NCBI RefSeq assembly: GCF_003335045.1
Contig: NZ_QOZG01000004.1
Coordinates: 372,001 to 436,000 of the forward strand
DNA from: Paramesorhizobium salinisoli
GTDB taxonomy: Bacteria > Pseudomonadota > Alphaproteobacteria > Rhizobiales > Rhizobiaceae
DNA length: 64,000 bases
Direction: 5' to 3'
The position numbers and the translations under genes were made by a program. Numbering within the stretch: the first letter of the stretch is position 1; each line of letters starts with the position of its first letter. The notes under the pieces are model-generated. The model did no database searches. It was not told where the DNA came from and saw only the letters and a program-made list of their open reading frames with translations. This document shows, one piece after another, positions 2,253-20,290 of this stretch.

Positions 2253-2279
2253 TATTGAACATTTGTATCTTTGTCAATA
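2253..2279. promoter_or_regulatory. Operator-like palindrome in a divergent promoter region
   Basis: TATTGA and TCAATA arms flank a 15-base spacer that is itself partly symmetric (CAAAG/ CATTTG-like). It sits midway between the dehydrogenase start (2178) and the HAD gene start (2339). A TTGACA hexamer for the minus strand overlaps the right arm (2272-2277), although the matching -10 is poor. This is where a repressor controlling both directions would bind. No regulator gene is visible next to it. Confidence 0.35.
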
Positions 2280-2338
2280 CCTATGTCCATTCCAAAGCGG
2301 AAACGCGCGGCGATGTCACGAAGAATTCATTTAGGGAA

Positions 2339-3013
2339 ATGTCGATGAAATCCGAGCTTAGTCCTTTCGATCTGGTGATTTTCGATTGCGATGGGGTGCT
2401 TGTGGATAGTGAGCCGCTTGCGGCTCTTGCCTATCACAATGTCTACGCGAAAGAAGGAATGCCGATACCGGACGGAACCGTGGCGCACGGTGTCGGCATG
2501 AAGCAGGCCGATATCATCCTCAAGATCGCCGAGTTGACTGGTCATCACCTGCCGCAGACGGCGGAGGCCAATATATGGCCGGAAACGCGATTGCTCTTCG
2601 CCGAATCACTGCAGCCTACGACCGGCATCATCGATTTTCTCGACCGGCTGGAGATACCGCGCTGCGTCGCTTCCTCCTCATCCCCCGAACGTATCGACTT
2701 CAGCCTCGATGTCACGCGGCTTCGCGGATATTTCGGAGAGGCGCTCTATTCCTCCTCGATGGTGAAGCATGGCAAACCGGCGCCGGACCTGTTTCTCCAC
2801 GCGGCCGAGGCGATGGGCGCCGATCCGCGACGCTGCGTCGTCATCGAGGATTCGCCCTATGGCATCGAGGGTGCTGTCGCGGCAGGGATGACGGCCATCG
2901 GCTACACCGGTGGGGGCCATAGCTATGACGGGCATGCCGACAGACTCCTCGGCAAGGGTGCTGCGGCCGTCTATCGCGACTGGAGCGGCATAGCCGCGTT
3001 GATGATTGGCTGA
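2339..3013 (+). CDS. HAD-superfamily phosphatase, beta-phosphoglucomutase/sugar-phosphatase-like
   Basis: A cytoplasmic haloacid-dehalogenase hydrolase of 224 residues. Motif I is FDCDGVLVDSEP with the nucleophile and acid aspartates at residues 16 and 18. Motif II is the SSSS stretch near residue 113, motif III the lysine in HGKPAPD (about 140), and motif IV IEDSPYG (about 165), so all catalytic motifs are intact. The helical cap inserted after motif I is typical of the YfbT/beta-phosphoglucomutase group that dephosphorylates sugar or polyol phosphates. The open frame extends back to 2255, but the ATG at 2339 (or 2345) starts just before the HAD fold. The gene is divergent from the SAF-domain dehydrogenase and may share its regulation. 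The exact substrate cannot be deduced. Confidence 0.85.
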   Translation: MSMKSELSPFDLVIFDCDGVLVDSEPLAALAYHNVYAKEGMPIPDGTVAHGVGMKQADIILKIAELTGHHLPQTAEANIWPETRLLFAESLQPTTGIIDFLDRLEIPRCVASSSSPERIDFSLDVTRLRGYFGEALYSSSMVKHGKPAPDLFLHAAEAMGADPRRCVVIEDSPYGIEGAVAAGMTAIGYTGGGHSYDGHADRLLGKGAAAVYRDWSGIAALMIG

Positions 3014-12384: not shown

Positions 12385-13032
12385 CTAGAGTCCGCCGAGC
12401 GCCTCGCTGGGGCGGCCCTCGCCAAGCGCCTTGCGGATCGCCGCCCTGGCGGAAGCGATGTCGGGAACGAGCCAATTTGGTTCCATGCCAAGGAATTTGT
12501 CGAGAAAAGCGATGGCATAGCTCGGCATTTCCGCAATATTCTCCTTATATGACCACCATGTACGCAGTTCATCGGCGCATTTGTCGATGGATCTCGCTTC
12601 GCCGAACTCCTGCTGGAATATGGCCGCGACCGCCCCGATGCAGAAATTCGTGTAGAGAAAGCCCTCGGGCCAGAAATCGACGATCTCGCGCATGGATAGA
12701 TCAACTGGCTTGGCGCCAAGACGTCTGGGGAGCGCCTTGGCGGGCTGCTCGCGGATCAGCTCGCACAGCACCAGACCGGCGGCGAAGATGATAAAATCCT
12801 TGCGGTCGAGGCCGGCATAATCCTTCTGGGCATTGACGGTTTCAACCCAGCCGAGAAAAGCCCGCGTCAGCTTCTTCTCATCGACCTCGAAGCCGACGCC
12901 ATAGGTCTCGGTCACAAGGCGGGCGTTCGTGCGGAAAGACGCCCGGAACCACCGCAACTGGCGCAGACGATGACGCAGATCCGGCATCGAAACGAGTTCA
13001 TTCTTCAAAAGTATCTTCATTGCCGCCGCCAT
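12385..13032 (-). CDS. Conserved-looking protein of unknown function (215 residues)
   Basis: I do not recognise this family. The protein is soluble and mixed charged: an N-terminal basic stretch (RHRLRQLRWFRASFR, about 20-34), a central helical part (FAAGLVLCELIREQPAKALPRRLG), and a C-terminal part with several tryptophans and a cysteine (DELRTWWSYKENIAEMPSYAIAFLDKFLGMEPNW). No signal peptide or membrane segment is visible. The ATG at 13032 follows GGAGAA, which fixes the start; a second ATG at 13020 has no such site. Upstream is an AT-rich stretch with a possible short overlapping frame. The gene is convergent with the VOC gene. Codon use looks like that of real genes here, so it is probably expressed. 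Confidence 0.65.
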   Translation of the reverse strand: MAAAMKILLKNELVSMPDLRHRLRQLRWFRASFRTNARLVTETYGVGFEVDEKKLTRAFLGWVETVNAQKDYAGLDRKDFIIFAAGLVLCELIREQPAKALPRRLGAKPVDLSMREIVDFWPEGFLYTNFCIGAVAAIFQQEFGEARSIDKCADELRTWWSYKENIAEMPSYAIAFLDKFLGMEPNWLVPDIASARAAIRKALGEGRPSEALGGL

Positions 13033-13132: not shown

Positions 13133-13409
13133 CAAAAACAAATGTTCTCTGAATGTCAGTGGATAATGTGATTGCGTATGGTTGGTTAGTGGAGACAACG
13201 GCGATCAGGGGAATTTGCGCCGGCAACCGCTGGACGCTTGTTTGGGCCGGAAAGTCTGACACTCTTTCCGCAAGGCGGATCATGACGCGGCAATAAGAGC
13301 GTCGCGCAACCAACTGGACGTGCAAAGGACGCTTTAATATTTTCAAATGCTGCATAATCAACCTAAATCGGTTTGGATTTAGAGAATTATGGAGAAGAGA
13401 GGAGACCTT
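13133..13409. other. AT-rich intergenic region upstream of the srl cluster
   Basis: This gap must hold the promoter for gutM-srlAEB-ptsI (plus strand) and for the unknown minus-strand gene. Apart from the perfect dyad at 13363-13382 I see no further element that I can name. Confidence 0.5.
13363..13382 (+). promoter_or_regulatory. Dyad just upstream of gutM, candidate operator
   Basis: CTAAATC and GATTTAG are perfect inverted repeats separated by six bases, ending 28 bases before the gutM ATG. This is the right place for a repressor or activator site controlling the PTS operon; the SorC-family protein encoded at 19250-20290 is the obvious candidate. No matching copy is seen in front of that regulator gene, which lowers confidence. 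Confidence 0.4.
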
Positions 13410-13844
13410 ATGGCAATCTGGCAATGGGGTTTGCTGGCTCTGGGAGCCGTCTGGGCCTTGCAGTCGCTCGGCGTCTGGCTTCAGATGCGGCACTATTCGG
13501 ACGTCTTCAAAGGGGTTACGGCGAAATATAGCGACGGCTTCGTCGGCGCCGGAAATTGCCGGGGACGTCTCGGCAAGGGTGTGATCGTGCTGATAGTGGT
13601 GACGCCCGATCTGGTGGTAAGGCGGCTTCTGGAAATGAGCGGGCGCTCGGTCTTCGCGAAATTCAGAAGACGCGAGGAATTCGAGGGCTTGACCCTCGAT
13701 GCTCTCCGGTCGAATTCCAATGCGGGCGAGGGAGAGCCGGGTGTGGCGGAGGCCATCAAACGGGCGATCGAGCAGATCGACCGGATGCGGTCGGAACCCA
13801 AGGAGAAGCCGGGTCTTACCGGCCTGAAAACAGTAGGCGCTTAA
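13410..13844 (+). CDS. gutM: GutM-family accessory protein of the glucitol/sorbitol PTS
   Basis: A 144-residue protein with one N-terminal membrane helix (about residues 4-22, WGLLALGAVWALQSLGVWL) followed by a cytoplasmic part containing GAGNCRGRLGKGVIVLIVV, characteristic of GutM (SrlM), the glucitol operon activator. ATG 13410 is chosen over 13389 because AGGAGA stands just before it. It is the first gene of the PTS cluster, and srlA begins 152 bases later, after a repeat element. In enterobacteria GutM works with the DeoR-type repressor SrlR; here the regulator is of the SorC family instead. The C-terminal tail (about 95-144) is charged and probably flexible. Confidence 0.85.
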   Translation: MAIWQWGLLALGAVWALQSLGVWLQMRHYSDVFKGVTAKYSDGFVGAGNCRGRLGKGVIVLIVVTPDLVVRRLLEMSGRSVFAKFRRREEFEGLTLDALRSNSNAGEGEPGVAEAIKRAIEQIDRMRSEPKEKPGLTGLKTVGA

Positions 13845-13845
13845 A

Positions 13846-13943
13846 GCAAGTCCAGGAAAGTGGAAACCGGTTTTTCCGGAAAAACAGGAACTGTTTTCCT
13901 GCGGACTTGCGCAAAAATAAAAGAATAGAGCGGGAACCGCTCT
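13846..13943. repeat. Two-hairpin intergenic repeat between gutM and srlA
   Basis: The first unit (13846-13910) is bounded by GCAAGTCC and GGACTTGC and contains the AAAGTGGAAACCGG core known from dispersed rhizobial repeats. The second (13927-13943) is AGAGCGG and CCGCTCT around GAA. Such elements often lie in transcription units and can lower or stabilise downstream expression. Its position between a regulator-like gene and the transport genes could separate their levels. Confidence 0.7.
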
Positions 13944-13996
13944 AGGTAAACGCCGGGAAGCGGGGAGCTTCACCGAGTGGCTCAAGGAGGAGCAAG

Positions 13997-14770
13997 ATGT
14001 CCATAATCACAATGTTGGCGCAACACGCCGACGTGACCATGCAACACCTGTCGGTGGCAGGTTCTCTGGTCTCCGATGCAGCTTTGCACGGGAAACAAGC
14101 CGTCCTCACTGCCGGCCAGCATGCAGGCAATGATCTCGTCATTCTTGCTCAGGCGGGCGGCGACAATCTGACCGTCGATCAGTTTCGCGAGCGGCTGCAA
14201 AATGTCCAGCAGGAGGAGCAACTGGGCTGGCTTGCCAATATCGGCAAGTATTTCATCGGCATGTTTCAAAAGGGCGGAGAGGTTTTCGCCGGCTTCGTGA
14301 CCGGCATCATTCCAACGCTGGTGGTGCTGATGACCGCGTTCTATGCGTTGACGGAACTCGTCGGCGAACAGCGGGTTCATGGCATCGCGCGCGGAGCGGG
14401 GCGCATTGCACTCACGCGCTACACCGTCCTGCCTGTTCTGGCGGTGTTCTTCCTGACTAATCCGATGGCCTATACCTTCGGCTCGTTTCTCGAGGAAAAG
14501 CACAAGCCTGCCTTCTATGACGCGGCTGTCTCCTATGTCCATCCTCCGCTCGGCCTGTTCCCGCATGTCAATCCGGGCGAATATTTCGTCTGGGGCGGCA
14601 TTCTGGTTGCCTTGCTCGAACTGGAGAAGAAGGGTGCCGTCGTCGCCGGCTACCATATCAAGGTCGCCATCTGGTACGCGCTCGTCGGCCTCGTTGTCAT
14701 CCTGCTCAAGGGCATGCTGACGGAGCGCATCACAGCACTCATGGCGCGCCGCCAGGGCGTTGAGCTTTGA
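13997..14770 (+). CDS. srlA: PTS glucitol/sorbitol-specific enzyme IIC
   Basis: A 257-residue membrane permease of the phosphotransferase system. The family core starts near residue 76 with WLANIGKYFIGMFQKGGEVFAGFVTGIIP and continues through NPMAYTFGSF, GLFPHVNPGEYFVWGG and the last helix before GMLTERITALMARR. It moves a hexitol across the inner membrane while it is phosphorylated. The Escherichia coli protein is about 187 residues; the extra 70-75 N-terminal residues here (His/Ala/Gln-rich, no membrane helix) are unusual. AGGAGGAGCAAG precedes ATG 13997, so the extension is probably translated. It is followed 21 bases later by srlE. Confidence 0.93.
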   Translation: MSIITMLAQHADVTMQHLSVAGSLVSDAALHGKQAVLTAGQHAGNDLVILAQAGGDNLTVDQFRERLQNVQQEEQLGWLANIGKYFIGMFQKGGEVFAGFVTGIIPTLVVLMTAFYALTELVGEQRVHGIARGAGRIALTRYTVLPVLAVFFLTNPMAYTFGSFLEEKHKPAFYDAAVSYVHPPLGLFPHVNPGEYFVWGGILVALLELEKKGAVVAGYHIKVAIWYALVGLVVILLKGMLTERITALMARRQGVEL

Positions 14771-14791
14771 GTCTGAGGGGAGGACAGAACG

Positions 14792-15805
14792 ATGGTCAAG
14801 ACATATAAAGCAGTCAAGATTTCCAGGGGTTCCGGCGGTTGGGGCGGGCCACTCGTCATCCAGTTGACGCCCCAGCGCAACAAGATCGTTTCCGTTACCG
14901 GAGGCGGTATCCATCCGGTGGCGCAGCGCATTGCGGAACTGACGGGTGGAGAAGCTGTCGATGGTTTCAGGTCTCCGCCTGTCGAAGGCGAGATGGCCGT
15001 CGTGGTCGTCGATTGCGGCGGCACGGCACGCTGCGGCGTCTATCCGCGCAAGCGCATCCCGACCGTCAACCTGACGCCCGTCGGACAGGCAGGCCCGCTC
15101 GCGCAGTTCATCACCGAGGATATCTATGTCTCGGGCGTCAAGCCGGAGAACATCGTTCCTGCGGATGGCTCGGACGCGGCCACGGTCGCCGGCATTGCCA
15201 CCGCAGCGGGGTCAGAACCGACGGCATCTGCGTCAAGCACCGCCACGACTCAGGCCTCCAGCGGCGAAGGCGGCATGATCGCCTTCATCAGCACCGTCGG
15301 CCGCGTGATGGGCCGCGTCGTCGGTATTTTCTTCAATGCCGGTCGCCGTACCATCGATCAGGTCATCCGCAACGTGCTGCCGTTCATGGCATTCGTCACC
15401 ATGCTGATCGGCGTGATCCTCTACACCGGTATCGGTGACATCCTGGCTCAGCCGATGGGACCGCTCGCCAACAATATCATCGGGCTTCTGATTATTTCGG
15501 CTATCTGCGGCCTTCCGTTCCTGTCACCCATTCTCGGGCCGGGCGCGGTGATCGCACAGGTGATCGGTGTCGCCATCATCGGGCCGCAGATCGCCAATGG
15601 CACGATCTCGCCTGCGATGGCGCTGCCGGCGCTCTTCGCCTACAACACGCAGGTCGGCTGCGATTTCGTTCCCGTCGGCCTGGCGTTGGGCGAAGCCAAA
15701 CCGAAAACCATTGAGATCGGCGTTCCCGCCGTTCTGCTCAGCCGCCAGATCATGGGTCCCGTTTCGGTGCTCATCGCCTGGGCCGTGAGCCTCGTGGTAT
15801 TCTGA
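14792..15805 (+). CDS. srlE: PTS glucitol/sorbitol-specific enzyme IIBC
   Basis: A 337-residue protein. The cytoplasmic IIB half (about 1-125) contains VDCGGTARCGVYPRKRIPT, where Cys75 is the expected phosphocysteine of the Gut family. A low-complexity Ala/Ser/Thr linker follows (about 130-160), then the membrane half with ISTVGRVMGRVVGIFFNAGRRTIDQVIRNVLPFMAF and several hydrophobic helices including GLPFLSPILGPGAVIAQVIG. Together with SrlA it forms the transport channel and passes phosphate from IIA to the sugar. Its length is close to that of the enterobacterial protein (about 319). GGGGAGGAC precedes ATG 14792; srlB follows after 70 bases. Confidence 0.94.
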   Translation: MVKTYKAVKISRGSGGWGGPLVIQLTPQRNKIVSVTGGGIHPVAQRIAELTGGEAVDGFRSPPVEGEMAVVVVDCGGTARCGVYPRKRIPTVNLTPVGQAGPLAQFITEDIYVSGVKPENIVPADGSDAATVAGIATAAGSEPTASASSTATTQASSGEGGMIAFISTVGRVMGRVVGIFFNAGRRTIDQVIRNVLPFMAFVTMLIGVILYTGIGDILAQPMGPLANNIIGLLIISAICGLPFLSPILGPGAVIAQVIGVAIIGPQIANGTISPAMALPALFAYNTQVGCDFVPVGLALGEAKPKTIEIGVPAVLLSRQIMGPVSVLIAWAVSLVVF

Positions 15806-15875
15806 TCAATATTTACAAACGGGGGCGCTGCCTAGCAGTGTCCCCGCCATCAATAGACAAGTGAGGTATGCCATC

Positions 15876-16256
15876 ATGTCGGTTCTTCTGAAAACACGGA
15901 TCACAGCAATCGGTCCTGAGGTGGCGGATCTGGCAGAGGGTGGCGTGGTCATATTATTCGCCGACGGCGCACCGCCGGAACTGGCCGAAGTCTCCGTCCT
16001 GCATGCCGTCGAAGATGGTCCGAGCGATGTTGTTCCTGCCGTCGGCACACCGATCAGGATTGGCGGCCTCACAGCCGAAATCACAGCTATCGGCGATTAT
16101 GCATGGCAAAAAGTACGCGATATCGGCCACGTGGTAATCAATTTCAACGGTGCTGCCCAGGCCGAGCGTCCCGGTGAAATATCGGCTTCGAAGATCGATC
16201 CGGAGATGCTGGTGACGGCGCTCAAGATGGATGCGATCATCACCATAGGCAGTTGA
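15876..16256 (+). CDS. srlB: PTS glucitol/sorbitol-specific enzyme IIA
   Basis: A 126-residue cytoplasmic IIA protein. SVLHAVEDGP places a histidine at residue 43, the same position as the phosphorylated histidine of Escherichia coli SrlB. The conserved IGDYAWQKVRDIGHVVINFNG segment (about 80-100) supports the assignment. The longer frame starts with GTG at 15861, but that GTGAGG is better read as the ribosome binding site of ATG 15876. It receives phosphate from the HPr domain encoded just downstream and passes it to IIB (SrlE). The enzyme I-HPr fusion starts 45 bases later. Confidence 0.93.
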   Translation: MSVLLKTRITAIGPEVADLAEGGVVILFADGAPPELAEVSVLHAVEDGPSDVVPAVGTPIRIGGLTAEITAIGDYAWQKVRDIGHVVINFNGAAQAERPGEISASKIDPEMLVTALKMDAIITIGS

Positions 16257-16301
16257 GTTTCAGCTTCCATAGAGATGTAGACACTATCTGGAAAGACGAT
16301 C

Positions 16302-18278
16302 ATGGAACGCTCGACCATCGTCAGAGTGCATGAGGGCCTTCATGCACGTCCCGCCACCCGCTTTGTCAAGCTTGCCAAGAGCTTCGAATCCGAGATCGAT
16401 CTGGTAAAGGGGGAAAAGTCGGTCAGCGCCAAGAGTTCGGTCAAGCTGATGCTGCTCGGCGTCAAGGAGAATGACGAGGTAATTGTCCGCGCCCAGGGCG
16501 CCGATGCCATCGAGGCGGTCGAGGCGCTGATCGGTTATCTCGAGAACCCGAAATCCGGTCTTGATGAAGAGGGGCAGGCGGATCGAGGAAAGCCCAAAGC
16601 AACCAATACGGCAGCTACACCGGAGCTTGCCATGAATTTGGCTGCCGACGGCAGGCTGAAAGGCGTCGGGGCCAGCGAGGGCGTATCGCTCGGGCTTGCC
16701 CATCCCCATTTTCCAGACGAGATAAAACTCGAAAACCGAAAACTCGCCGCTGATGAAGTCGAGGCGGAAGTGGCGCGGTTTCGCGACGCGGTGGTCGTGG
16801 TCCAGAAGCGAATGGATGTTTCGCTCGCCGCCGGAAATCTGGCTGAAAGCGACCGGGGCATCATCGCGGCGCTGAAGGACATTGCGGCCGACGATACGCT
16901 GAGCGAGGAAACCATATCGCTTATCCGCGGCGGCATGGACGCGGTGACAGCCGTATTTGGCGCTGCTTCGAAAGTCGCCACCGAATTCAGCGAAATGGAC
17001 GATCCCTATCTCAATGCCCGTGCCGACGATGTGCATGCCGTCGGTCGCCAATTGTGCCTGGCGCTGCTCGGGCGCGAGGAGGGGGGGCTGGAAGACATTC
17101 CCGACGGCGCCATCCTGATCGCCAGGGATATAGGCGCCTGGGATCTGGCGCGGGCGCCGCTGAAGCGCATCAGGGGCGTGATCTGCGGTCATGGCGGGGC
17201 GACTTCGCATGTAGCCATCATCGCGCGTGCGCACGGCATTCCGGCGGTGCTCGGGCTTGGTAACCAGGTGGAACAGCTGCGCACGGCTAAACAGATCGCG
17301 CTCGACGGTGGCACGGGAGAGGTGTTCGCCGATCCCGATGGCGAAACTACCGTCCGCTTCGAGGAACGCATCCGAAAAGCTGAGGAAGAGCACGCTGCGT
17401 TGAAAGTGTTCCGGGATGTGGTCTCCAAGCGTTCGGACGGCGTGATCATCGAGGTGGCGGCCAATATAGGCTCGCTCGAAGAAATCGAAGCGGCGCAGGA
17501 AGCTGGCGCGATGGGTGTCGGGCTGTTCCGTACCGAGCTTTTGTTCATGCGCCATATGCATCTGCCTTCAGAGGACATGCAGACGGAGATCTATTCGACG
17601 CTGGCGAAGGCATTCGCGCCGCACCCGGTCATCGTTCGCACGCTCGATGTCGGCGGCGACAAACCGGTCGCCGGGGTGGAATTTCCGGATGAGGAGAACC
17701 CCTTCCTTGGTTGGCGCGGCATCCGCATGTGCCTGGACAGGCCGGATATCTTCAAGCCGCAATTGCGCGCCCTGCTGCGGGCGGCCGTGCACGGCAAACT
17801 GAAGGTCATGTTGCCGATGGTATCGGAAATCTCGGAAGTGGCGCGGACGCGGGCGCTGATCGCGGATTGCGAAACCGAGCTGAAAGCGGAGGGAAAGGAT
17901 TGTCGTTCGTTCGATCTCGGCGTGATGATCGAGACGCCGGCCGCGGTTCTGATAGCGCCGATGCTCGCCAGGGAGGTTGCATTTTTCTCCATCGGCACCA
18001 ATGATCTGACGCAATATGTGATGGCGGCGGACAGGCTGAATCCGACGGTCGCGGCATTGAATGACGTGAAAAACCCCGCCGTGATGGCAGCGATCGCGAT
18101 GACGGCGAAAGCCGGCGTGGAAGCTGGCATCATGGTCGGCATGTGCGGAGAGGCGGCGGGCCGTCCGGATTTGATCCCGGAATTCATCCGCATGGGGCTT
18201 ACGGAGCTCAGCATGAGCCCGGCCTCCATCCAGCGCGCAAAGAAATGCCTGGCGGAACTGGCCAGCCCATCATCCTGA
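16302..18278 (+). CDS. HPr-enzyme I fusion, phosphoenolpyruvate-protein phosphotransferase
   Basis: A 658-residue cytoplasmic fusion. Residues 1-88 are an HPr domain with VHEGLHARPATRFVKLAK; His14 is the phosphorylation site. A linker of about 30 charged residues leads to enzyme I, whose phosphohistidine lies in GHGGATSHVAIIARAHG (His303). The PEP-binding part is complete: GVGLFRTELLFM, GWRGIRMCLDRPDIF, IGTNDLTQYVMAADR and MVGMCGEAA. With srlA, srlE and srlB it completes the relay from PEP to sugar inside one cluster. Alphaproteobacteria usually carry only the regulatory nitrogen PTS, whose enzyme I has a GAF domain instead, so a dedicated HPr-EI fusion is a sign of an imported sugar system. 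It is convergent with the unknown gene at 18292. Confidence 0.94.
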   Translation: MERSTIVRVHEGLHARPATRFVKLAKSFESEIDLVKGEKSVSAKSSVKLMLLGVKENDEVIVRAQGADAIEAVEALIGYLENPKSGLDEEGQADRGKPKATNTAATPELAMNLAADGRLKGVGASEGVSLGLAHPHFPDEIKLENRKLAADEVEAEVARFRDAVVVVQKRMDVSLAAGNLAESDRGIIAALKDIAADDTLSEETISLIRGGMDAVTAVFGAASKVATEFSEMDDPYLNARADDVHAVGRQLCLALLGREEGGLEDIPDGAILIARDIGAWDLARAPLKRIRGVICGHGGATSHVAIIARAHGIPAVLGLGNQVEQLRTAKQIALDGGTGEVFADPDGETTVRFEERIRKAEEEHAALKVFRDVVSKRSDGVIIEVAANIGSLEEIEAAQEAGAMGVGLFRTELLFMRHMHLPSEDMQTEIYSTLAKAFAPHPVIVRTLDVGGDKPVAGVEFPDEENPFLGWRGIRMCLDRPDIFKPQLRALLRAAVHGKLKVMLPMVSEISEVARTRALIADCETELKAEGKDCRSFDLGVMIETPAAVLIAPMLAREVAFFSIGTNDLTQYVMAADRLNPTVAALNDVKNPAVMAAIAMTAKAGVEAGIMVGMCGEAAGRPDLIPEFIRMGLTELSMSPASIQRAKKCLAELASPSS

Positions 18279-18292
18279 AAGAGATTTCAGGT
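18275..18292. terminator. Hairpin between convergent genes
   Basis: CCTGAAA and TTTCAGG pair around GAGA, overlapping the stop codon of the HPr-enzyme I gene and touching the stop of the convergent gene. No T-tract follows on either strand, so it is a weak terminator at best. Confidence 0.35.
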
Positions 18293-19089
18293 CAGGGCAA
18301 ATAAACGACCAGACGCGAAAACAGCTCCGCCAAAGCGCTGCACGGGTCTTCTGACGCAAAAGCGGCGGCGAAACGGTCTTCCCGGGCCGAAACGGCGAGA
18401 AATGCGCTCTCCAGCAGGTCCGACATGTCATCCGTCGGGGCTGACGTGTCTTGCGGCTGCGTCGTAGCGACAGCGTATGCAAGGCCGATCGTGGAAAAGA
18501 CCAGTATTTCCGTCTCTGGCTGCAGGGCCACGCTGGCGGGCAAAGGAGAGGCGGTTCCCATGGTTTTGGCGGGATGCCGCCGCACTGATTCGATGGTGAG
18601 TACAGCACAGGCCTTGGCGATATCGCGGGTGGAGGCATCCTGTGCCAGCGCGCGGGCAAACACATTTCCGTGATTGCGCGCCAGGCTGATGTAGACATCC
18701 GCGAATGCCGCTTCATGTATGAAAGCGTCGCCTCTGCCAGAGCGGCGCAACACTTCTTTGGTGAGATGATACATCTCACGGTGGAACAGGCGGCGGCCAT
18801 CCGGATGGGAGAAATAGAGCTTGAGGCTGCCGATCCGATTGGTGCGGCCACGCGCAGGGTGATCGGAAATCAGGGAAATCGAGATAGTTTCTGCCATGGT
18901 CAGGGCCGTATCGACGAAAGTCGCGGCGGTTCCCAGAAGCATTTCAGGCAGTTCGGCCGGGTTTTTCGGCGGTAAGTTCGTCAGCCGGCGGCCCTGACTG
19001 TTGGATCCGACTTGGCGGATTACATGGCGGATATCGCGCAAGCGGTCCTTCAGATTGACAACGATGTCGTCGTTCACATGATTGAACAT
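18292..19089 (-). CDS. Unknown 265-residue protein within the PTS cluster
   Basis: I do not recognise this family. The protein is soluble, without signal peptide or long hydrophobic segment. The N-terminal part is basic (NLKDRLRDIRHVIRQVG) and the middle is helical with AAFADVYISLARNHGNVFARAL. The C-terminal part is acidic (PTDDMSDLLESAFLAVSAREDRFAAAFASEDPCSALAELFSRLVVYLP). It lies between the HPr-enzyme I gene (convergent, 13 bases apart) and the divergent SorC regulator gene. This placement suggests a role in regulation or use of the sugar system, but that is only inference. Its upstream region (160 bases) is shared with the regulator. Confidence 0.65.
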   Translation of the reverse strand: MFNHVNDDIVVNLKDRLRDIRHVIRQVGSNSQGRRLTNLPPKNPAELPEMLLGTAATFVDTALTMAETISISLISDHPARGRTNRIGSLKLYFSHPDGRRLFHREMYHLTKEVLRRSGRGDAFIHEAAFADVYISLARNHGNVFARALAQDASTRDIAKACAVLTIESVRRHPAKTMGTASPLPASVALQPETEILVFSTIGLAYAVATTQPQDTSAPTDDMSDLLESAFLAVSAREDRFAAAFASEDPCSALAELFSRLVVYLP

Positions 19090-19249
19090 GATAACCGCTT
19101 TTCTCCAGTTTTACGACCCAGACCATTTGGGCGTGTCGCATGCAGGACGATCATGCCAGAAACTTGTTTCGGGACGGAACTAAAATCAATAGGTTCGGTC
19201 CGTCGTCGGAGAATATGAATCAATATCGGGTGGACGAGGAGGACGACAT

Positions 19250-20290
19250 TTGACGGAACGGCATACCGGAAAGGTGAGGGCCGGAAAAGTGAAGGCCGCG
19301 CAGGGCGGCGGTCGTCAAGCTGGCGAGGCGGCGCCCGGTACAGTATCGGGCGAAAGCCGGAGCGACAGGCTGAGAACCCGCGCGGCGTGGATGTATTATA
19401 TCGAGCAGATGACGCAGAACGATATTGCCGATGTGCTCGGCGTCGGGCGTGTAACGATCGTTCGCCTTCTGGCGGAGGCGCGGGCGCGCAACGAGGTCAA
19501 GATCTCGATCGACAGCAATCTTTCGAGCCTCATCGGCCTGGAGCGGCAATTGGAGAAGGCATTCGGGCTGGAACGGGCGATCGTGGCGCCGCTTTCGGCC
19601 CCTGGAAACGATCCGATCAATGCAATCGCTGCCGCAACCGGAGACTATCTTTCCGAGGTGATCCGCCACGGGATGCGGGTCGGTGTAGGCTGGGGGCGTA
19701 CGCTGTTCCATACGCTTTCCTTCATCAATGCGCGCTCGCTTAATGATCTCACCGTGATCTCGCTTCTTGGCGGTATCAGCCAGCCGCGCCGCTTCAATCC
19801 GGCGGAGTTCGCCTGGCAGTTTGCCGAGATATTCCAGGGCGAGGGATATCTGATTCCCGCGCCGGCGCTCGTCGACAGCATGGAAACAAAACGCGCGCTG
19901 ATCGAGCGTTGTGGGCTGCAATACGTCTTCGAAATGGCCGAAAGTCTCGATCTGGTACTTCTCAGCGTCGGCGGGATCGAAAGCGCTACAACCTCTTACC
20001 GCGTCGGCCATATCACCGAGGAACAGCGGGATTCGCTTGCCGCCAAGGGCGCGGTCGGCGATCTCCTCTACCATTTCTACGATATCGACGGAAAACTGGT
20101 CGATCATCCGATCCAGGATGGCGTGATGTCGGTCGGCGTGTCGACGCTGCAGAAGGCGCCGGCCCGGATATTGACGTCAGGCGGGCCGGAAAAGATCGCG
20201 GCGCTGCTTGGCGCGATGAAGCTGATCCGTCCGACGGTCTTCATCACGGATGAGGAGAGTGCTGCCCGGATGCTGGAAAAAATGGAGTGA
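19250..20290 (+). CDS. SorC/DeoR-type sugar-binding transcriptional regulator
   Basis: A 346-residue DNA-binding protein of the SorC family. A disordered basic N-terminus of about 40 residues precedes a helix-turn-helix (MYYIEQMTQNDIADVLGVGRVTIVRLLAEAR, about 48-78). The sugar-binding domain follows, with GVGWGRTLFHTL (about 145), SLLGGISQPRR and the C-terminal ILTSGGPEKIAALLGA. Members respond to phosphorylated sugars and act as repressors or activators. The start is TTG at 19250, chosen because GAGGAGGAC lies just before it. It is the likely regulator of the srl operon and of the unknown gene next to it. It ends one base before the metI stop on the other strand. Confidence 0.9.
   Translation: MTERHTGKVRAGKVKAAQGGGRQAGEAAPGTVSGESRSDRLRTRAAWMYYIEQMTQNDIADVLGVGRVTIVRLLAEARARNEVKISIDSNLSSLIGLERQLEKAFGLERAIVAPLSAPGNDPINAIAAATGDYLSEVIRHGMRVGVGWGRTLFHTLSFINARSLNDLTVISLLGGISQPRRFNPAEFAWQFAEIFQGEGYLIPAPALVDSMETKRALIERCGLQYVFEMAESLDLVLLSVGGIESATTSYRVGHITEEQRDSLAAKGAVGDLLYHFYDIDGKLVDHPIQDGVMSVGVSTLQKAPARILTSGGPEKIAALLGAMKLIRPTVFITDEESAARMLEKME

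Follow-up and report, generated by a model that had tools for sequence, protein, structure and literature searches.

The analysed window (64,000 nucleotides of contig NZ_QOZG01000004.1 of the soil and plant bacterium Paramesorhizobium salinisoli, positions 372,001 to 436,000) carries a cluster that resembles the sorbitol (glucitol, Gut) import operon of Escherichia coli and encodes a phosphotransferase system (PTS) with its own fusion of HPr and enzyme I (EI). Gene content and conserved linkage suggest that this cluster serves the catabolism of a branched tetritol, with 2-C-methyl-D-erythritol as the likeliest substrate (probability roughly 0.7). In the proposed pathway, phosphate would pass from phosphoenolpyruvate (PEP) through HPr-EI and SrlB to SrlE, and the PTS would bring in 2-C-methyl-D-erythritol and deliver it as methylerythritol phosphate (MEP). 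MEP would then be oxidized to 1-deoxy-D-xylulose 5-phosphate (DXP) by a DXP reductoisomerase-like enzyme (DXR-II), which would occupy the slot of the E. coli sorbitol-6-phosphate dehydrogenase (SrlD), and DXP would be split, as acetoin is, into acetyl-CoA and glyceraldehyde 3-phosphate by an AcoABC-like complex together with dihydrolipoyl dehydrogenase. Regulation would be exerted by a SorC-type regulator and GutM. Overall, the first two isoprenoid-building steps would run in reverse; the substrate, the direction of the reaction and the steps from import to cleavage are predictions from the sequence.

The PTS cluster spans positions 13389-20290 on the forward strand, and all of its assigned products score above the Pfam cut-offs. 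It consists of gutM (13389-13844, PF06923, 78 bits), srlA encoding IIC2 of the Gut PTS (13997-14770, PF03608, 210 bits, also above the NF049923 cut-off), srlE encoding IIB-IIC1 (14792-15805, PF03612 with 239 bits and PF07663 with 138 bits, above the NF049924 cut-off), srlB encoding IIA (15861-16256, PF03829, 93 bits), the HPr-EI fusion gene (16302-18278, PF00381, PF05524, PF00391 and PF02896) and, further downstream, a gene for a SorC/DeoR-type sugar-binding regulator (19250-20290, PF04198, 189 bits). The three permease proteins thus carry the SrlA, SrlE and SrlB domains of a Gut-family permease within one operon. SrlB starts with GTG (an ATG lies at 15876) and stays below the NCBI glucitol IIA models (66.8 of 189.55 bits for TIGR00849, 62.6 of 165 bits for PRK10377), and the regulator stays below the NCBIfam DeoR model (186.5 of 420 bits). 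The fusion protein combines His14 of HPr and His303 of EI in a single chain, with the GMCGE motif of EI from residue 613, and is 88% identical to its homologue in Phyllobacterium phragmitis, which groups the host with Phyllobacterium; the HPr motif is present in 99 and the strict EI motif in 92 out of 100 homologous loci. These family matches and residues bear out the gene assignment of the sequence-only reading, which had described srlA-srlE-srlB, an HPr-EI fusion with these two histidines, GutM and a SorC regulator. The host genome contains one further HPr frame and one further frame with an EI N-terminal domain (762 amino acids), consistent with a predicted EI-Ntr.

When the flanking frames were clustered and scanned for families, four further proteins emerged, namely a DXR-like oxidoreductase (PF21135), the E1 alpha and E1 beta subunits and an E2 with a lipoyl domain; all four are encoded on the reverse strand, at the left edge of the window or beyond it. 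DXR-II (859-2277, PF21135, 228 bits) is followed by an AcoA-like E1 alpha subunit that runs past the edge (1-843, PF00676, 264 bits), and the contig continues to the left of the window (stretch L155) with AcoB (18785-19792 of L155) and the E2 subunit AcoC (17447-18781 of L155). The homology of DXR-II starts at residue 34 (around position 2178), and the protein is 74% identical over 435 residues to the Brucella abortus DXR-II (DRL, PDB 3upl and 3upy), with identical ligand residues and retained dimer residues. All eight residues known from the literature are present (E174, F178, K191, K193, T229, H250, R320 and Y322). AcoC combines a lipoyl domain with an alpha/beta-hydrolase domain and passes the model for acetoin dehydrogenase E2 (NF011457, 426.7 bits, cut-off 307). 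The complex resembles acetoin dehydrogenase in its E1 alpha, E1 beta and E2 and would differ from it in its substrate, DXP. The unit proposed earlier stands as a Gut PTS with its own HPr and EI but was drawn too small, as the functional unit extends to DXR-II and the AcoABC-like complex, which provide candidate steps of catabolism.

The linkage of these genes was analysed in the best 80 of 468 homologous loci that were found with HPr-EI and across 297 genomes of the order. SrlA, SrlE, SrlB and EI occur together in 78 out of the 80 loci, and the loci that lack a part (L082, L092 and L096) are stretches that end early. Within the stretch examined, AcoA and AcoB are present in 36, DXR-II in 31, and DXR-II and/or AcoAB in 36 of the 80 loci, on either side of the PTS, in either orientation and in varied order. 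At the level of genomes, DXR-II adjoins AcoAB in 14 out of 17 genomes with SrlE (PF03612) and in 9 out of 280 others (Fisher's exact test, 1.5e-15); the genome sets for all Fisher tests were compiled by hand, and the p-values given here overstate the significance because the genomes are not independent. The DXR-II/AcoAB unit was sought in stretches around DXR-II-type matches, and the DXR-II of one genome (G162) is a contig-end piece that the PF21135 scan missed.

Where the PTS is absent, other import systems take its place. Among 12 stretches with DXR-II and Aco genes and no PTS, seven combine an ABC importer with a PfkB kinase (L156, L161, L164, L175, L179, L188 and L198), one shows the kinase alone (L158), one the importer alone (L210), and three show neither (L184 and L186, whose Mesorhizobium genomes have a PTS elsewhere, and the contig piece L215). 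A plasmid survey, in which 16 regions were inspected out of 96 plasmid records with a DXR-II-family match, gave a Gut PTS in nine regions (Rhizobium, Nitratireductor, Terrarubrum, Pseudoroseomonas, two Listeria, two Ligilactobacillus and Enterococcus), an ABC importer with a sugar kinase in three (Sinorhizobium meliloti Rm41, Agrobacterium tumefaciens and Rhizobium sophoriradicis), a major facilitator superfamily transporter with an FGGY kinase beside DXR-II in one (Priestia), Aco genes with no obvious importer in two (Aminobacter and Shinella) and neither in one (Phyllobacterium sp. 628). The constant element is DXR-II, and the exchanged modules are those for import and phosphorylation. Listeria, Ligilactobacillus and Enterococcus likewise have DXR-II beside their Gut PTS, so the linkage spans two phyla. 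A dihydrolipoyl dehydrogenase gene adjoins the unit in S. meliloti, A. tumefaciens, R. sophoriradicis and Shinella, a lipoyl synthase gene in S. meliloti and A. tumefaciens, and in Priestia about 5 kb separates DXR-II from the E1, E2 and E3 genes.

Some of the plasmid neighbourhoods contain further genes. In the two Ligilactobacillus plasmids, the DXR-II and Gut genes are followed by fsa and tkt in place of Aco (L223 and L224, 12907-15569), perhaps as another exit from DXP. The Rhizobium plasmid carries thiC, thiO, thiS and a thiazole synthase gene near its Gut/DXR-II/E1 cluster (L220, 15814-19314); DXP is a thiamine precursor as well. In the Phyllobacterium sp. 628 plasmid, DXR-II follows genes for a sugar ABC transporter and an aldose epimerase, with no Aco or Gut genes in view (L218, 19998-21317).

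The combination of import, phosphorylation and a CoA-dependent complex suggests catabolism, and the presence of DXR-II with an AcoABC-like complex suggests a substrate other than sorbitol; methylerythritol is favoured because of the known specificity of DXR-II. The succession of a polyol PTS and DXR-II parallels that of SrlABE and SrlD, and DXP and acetoin share the same alpha-hydroxy methyl ketone. The available part of PMC3424233 reports that, in vitro, pyruvate dehydrogenase makes deoxyxylulose, and that DXP is formed in vivo by aceE mutants. The sequence-only reading had left the sugar and the first catabolic step open, and methylerythritol with DXR-II is now a candidate answer to both.

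The alternative that survives best, though it is unlikely, is the import of 1-deoxy-D-xylulose or a relative that enters as DXP and is cleaved by Aco, while DXR-II just diverts DXP to MEP for isoprenoids. Deoxyxylulose is phosphorylated by E. coli XylB, an FGGY kinase, according to the same part of PMC3424233. The kinase adjoining DXR-II in Priestia is of the FGGY family too. Against this, Gut PTSs are polyol carriers, DXR-II immediately adjoins the PTS without Aco in Listeria and Ligilactobacillus, and five of the 23 genomes with the DXR-II/AcoAB unit own a DXR-I for biosynthesis (G023, G116, G134, G172 and G248), which makes DXR-II spare for biosynthesis there.

A tree of DXR-II proteins bears on the specificity of the enzyme. 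It is a quick tree of 112 proteins in which five repeat cluster copies were omitted and the Priestia row was relabelled by hand, and its root is unsure because of long branches (L168 and L183). The window protein falls into a clade of 47 rows (SH-aLRT 99), of which 33 are linked to Gut and Aco, 13 to Aco and one to neither, with B. abortus DXR-II just outside. Seven Mesorhizobium genomes carry a second, unlinked copy, and these copies fall into a clade of 18 rows without any linked member (SH-aLRT 100). Linked proteins elsewhere in the tree (L107, L118, L119, L121, L226 and L227) group with three unlinked ones. Two of these linked loci show unusual HPr-EI genes: a second complete fusion gene lies close to the Gut cluster in L118 (17274-19313, G266), and the HPr and EI parts are in overlapping, different frames in L121 (6914-9357, G085), as split genes or through a frameshift. 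That the linked proteins form their own clade, with linked and unlinked copies side by side in the seven Mesorhizobium genomes, would fit a lineage that has shifted in specificity towards another methyl-branched or related tetritol such as 2-C-methyl-threitol. This is nevertheless quite improbable, given that K191, K193, T229, H250 and R320 are invariant in all 62 linked DXR-II proteins examined and that the linked enzyme is the sole DXR found in the window genome.

An ordinary PTS for sorbitol or another hexitol, with the dehydrogenase encoded elsewhere and an incidental link to DXR-II and Aco, is more doubtful still. SrlA and SrlE pass the NCBI glucitol equivalog cut-offs, and in the available part of PMC11176438 the Listeria operon is regarded as one for sorbitol, with its 'SAF domain-containing protein' counted as a member. 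The resemblance to the E. coli srlAEBD-gutM-srlR operon extends to 40% identity for SrlA (which has an extra N-terminal extension here), 49% for SrlE, 29% for SrlB and 27% for GutM. Unlike the E. coli operon, the window cluster has no SrlD, has a SorC-type instead of a DeoR-type regulator, and adds the HPr-EI fusion, the DXR-II/Aco unit and two conserved proteins described below. No homologue of E. coli SrlD was found at E 1e-5 in the window or in 96 PTS stretches (five of them duplicate places already within the 80 loci), a search that did not include a genome-wide survey of short-chain dehydrogenases/reductases (SDR). The earlier observation that no sorbitol-6-phosphate dehydrogenase lies beside the PTS thus extends to its relatives, and with it the arrangement of a sorbitol catabolic operon, with SrlD alongside the PTS, is lacking. 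SDR-type frames at this threshold (n = 9) were confined to the DXR-II stretches and L155, where one weak frame was found, and none occurred in the 96 PTS stretches. The linkage to DXR-II in two phyla and the exchange of importers also argue against sorbitol. The Listeria monocytogenes operon itself encodes, one after another, the regulator, DXR-II, GutM and all three PTS proteins, differing from the window by the absence, in the stretch examined, of both an HPr-EI fusion and Aco genes.

Least probable is salvage of imported methylerythritol as MEP for isoprenoids and not as a carbon source, for although MEP is an isoprenoid precursor and the window genome lacks DXR-I, a salvage route could do without DXR-II and without a CoA-dependent E1/E2 complex that has dihydrolipoyl dehydrogenase and lipoyl synthase beside it.

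Several observations weigh against methylerythritol catabolism. Some 10 kb with unrelated genes lies between DXR-II and the PTS in the window, and 49 out of 111 DXR-II-family rows of the tree lack both Gut and Aco genes nearby. The DXR-II/AcoAB unit is missing in three of the 17 PTS genomes: in G155, AcoABC adjoins the PTS and DXR-II is found elsewhere, G210 has DXR-II elsewhere and no Aco, and the PTS cluster of G104 (L112) is accompanied only by a DXR-II remnant (PF21135, E 2e-9) and a Y12 frame (see below) with an internal TGA, so that L112 appears to represent a decaying pathway. Pyruvate dehydrogenase models give the best scores for the E1 beta of the genome and for the E1 alpha subunits of two relatives; E1 beta passes a subfamily model and E1 alpha of the two relatives nearly reaches one, which does not settle the substrate. 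The known activity of DXR-II is in the MEP-forming direction, and the proposed oxidation of MEP would rely on the reversibility of DXR. Finally, no DXR-I is seen in 15 of the 17 PTS genomes, and where DXR-II is single, biosynthesis must rest on it too.

This last point also applies to the host itself, in which DXS and one DXR-II are present (the remaining PF21135 frames share 30% and 24% identity with it) and no DXR-I was found in the genome; its DXR-II should therefore act on DXP and MEP and also make MEP for isoprenoids. The B. abortus enzyme is known as biosynthetic, whereas the window enzyme lies in an importer-linked AcoABC unit and would work in the reverse direction. All six genomes of the genus carry one strong DXR-II, and two members without SrlE (G298 and G299) keep it with no Aco beside it. 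With DXR-I in just two of the 17 SrlE genomes (G155 and G248), most such hosts depend on some DXR-II. Outside the order, Anaerococcus shows no MEP genes besides that for DXR-II. The accessible text of PMC3847144 describes 53 DXR-IIs (11 verified), reports two functional paralogues each in Mesorhizobium loti and Ochrobactrum anthropi, records DXR-II activity for Finegoldia, in which the search for the rest of the MEP pathway found no genes, and raises the question of how DXR-II came about in strains already equipped with DXR-I.

Two conserved proteins that the sequence-only reading does not mention accompany the PTS cluster, both encoded on the reverse strand: Y12 (12385-13032), divergent from gutM, and X18 (18292-19089), between HPr-EI and the regulator. 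Each is present in 78 out of the 80 HPr-EI loci. An assignment to known families was rejected, as the window proteins have no Pfam or NCBIfam match and their relatives show scattered weak Pfam matches, confined to a single member per family with best E values of 1.9e-4 and 0.03. A PDB sequence search gave no match better than E 0.2, Foldseek against PDB gave none at E 0.001 with confident models (pLDDT 87.9 for Y12 and 85.3 for X18), and a comparison of Y12 with X18 gave no detectable kinship (probability 2); both are mostly helical. Y12 occurs in all 23 genomes with the DXR-II/AcoAB unit and in 3 out of 274 without it (Fisher 2e-31; a marginal match in G084, E 3.5e-4, was excluded from the counts), and can be distant from the unit (about 60 kb in G188, separate contigs in G068 and G208). 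X18 occurs in 15 out of 17 SrlE genomes and in 0 out of 280 others (Fisher 2e-23), a zero that holds only at E 0.001 because weaker relatives are present in ABC-type loci. Adjacent pairs of Y12 and X18 in the ABC-type loci L219, L229, L231 and L244 tie them to the pathway and not to the PTS, and both are putative accessory proteins of the system.

The 80 HPr-EI loci belong to Phyllobacterium, Mesorhizobium, Brucella/Ochrobactrum, Aminobacter, Pseudaminobacter, Pseudochrobactrum, Oryzicola and other Rhizobiales. SrlE was found in 17 of the 297 genomes of the order, and the comparison across the order that the sequence-only reading had called for shows that the cluster is not core genome. The proposal that the cluster was acquired as a unit agrees with this patchiness and with similar plasmid-borne PTS clusters. 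A recent arrival in this lineage is not supported, because SrlE is present in all seven sampled Mesorhizobium genomes (genus g3, assigned through contigs shared with the HPr-EI loci) and in four out of six genomes of the window's own genus and the G+C content of the cluster is ordinary relative to the first 30 kb of the window.

Divergent from DXR-II lies a gene for a HAD-family sugar phosphatase-like protein (2255-3013, forward strand, PF00702 and PF13419); HAD-type frames, a broad family, occur in 56 of the 80 loci. Promoter and terminator scans gave 5 hits against 2.7 expected and 12 against 7.1 expected, respectively, and were not used as support.

In searches of openly licensed PMC papers (CC0, CC BY, CC BY-SA), none of the listed titles or abstract openings described such a pathway, and the main text of PMC3847144 contains none of the terms acetoin, phosphotransferase and catabol. 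It is fairly probable that DXR-II arose or was kept as the catabolic enzyme of the pathway, with an additional isoprenoid role in Phyllobacterium after loss of other DXR genes, and that Y12 and X18 are the pathway's new families. If the proposed pathway is correct, it would provide a route to use methylerythritol. This small alcohol is a plant compound, and the related 2-methyltetrols that arise from isoprene in air would be natural candidate substrates. The sorbitol label on such operons would be corrected in more than one phylum, and two uncharacterised families, Y12 and X18, would gain a testable setting. The pathway would also explain in physiological terms why bacteria retain a DXR-II that looks redundant, which the accessible text of PMC3847144 leaves unanswered.

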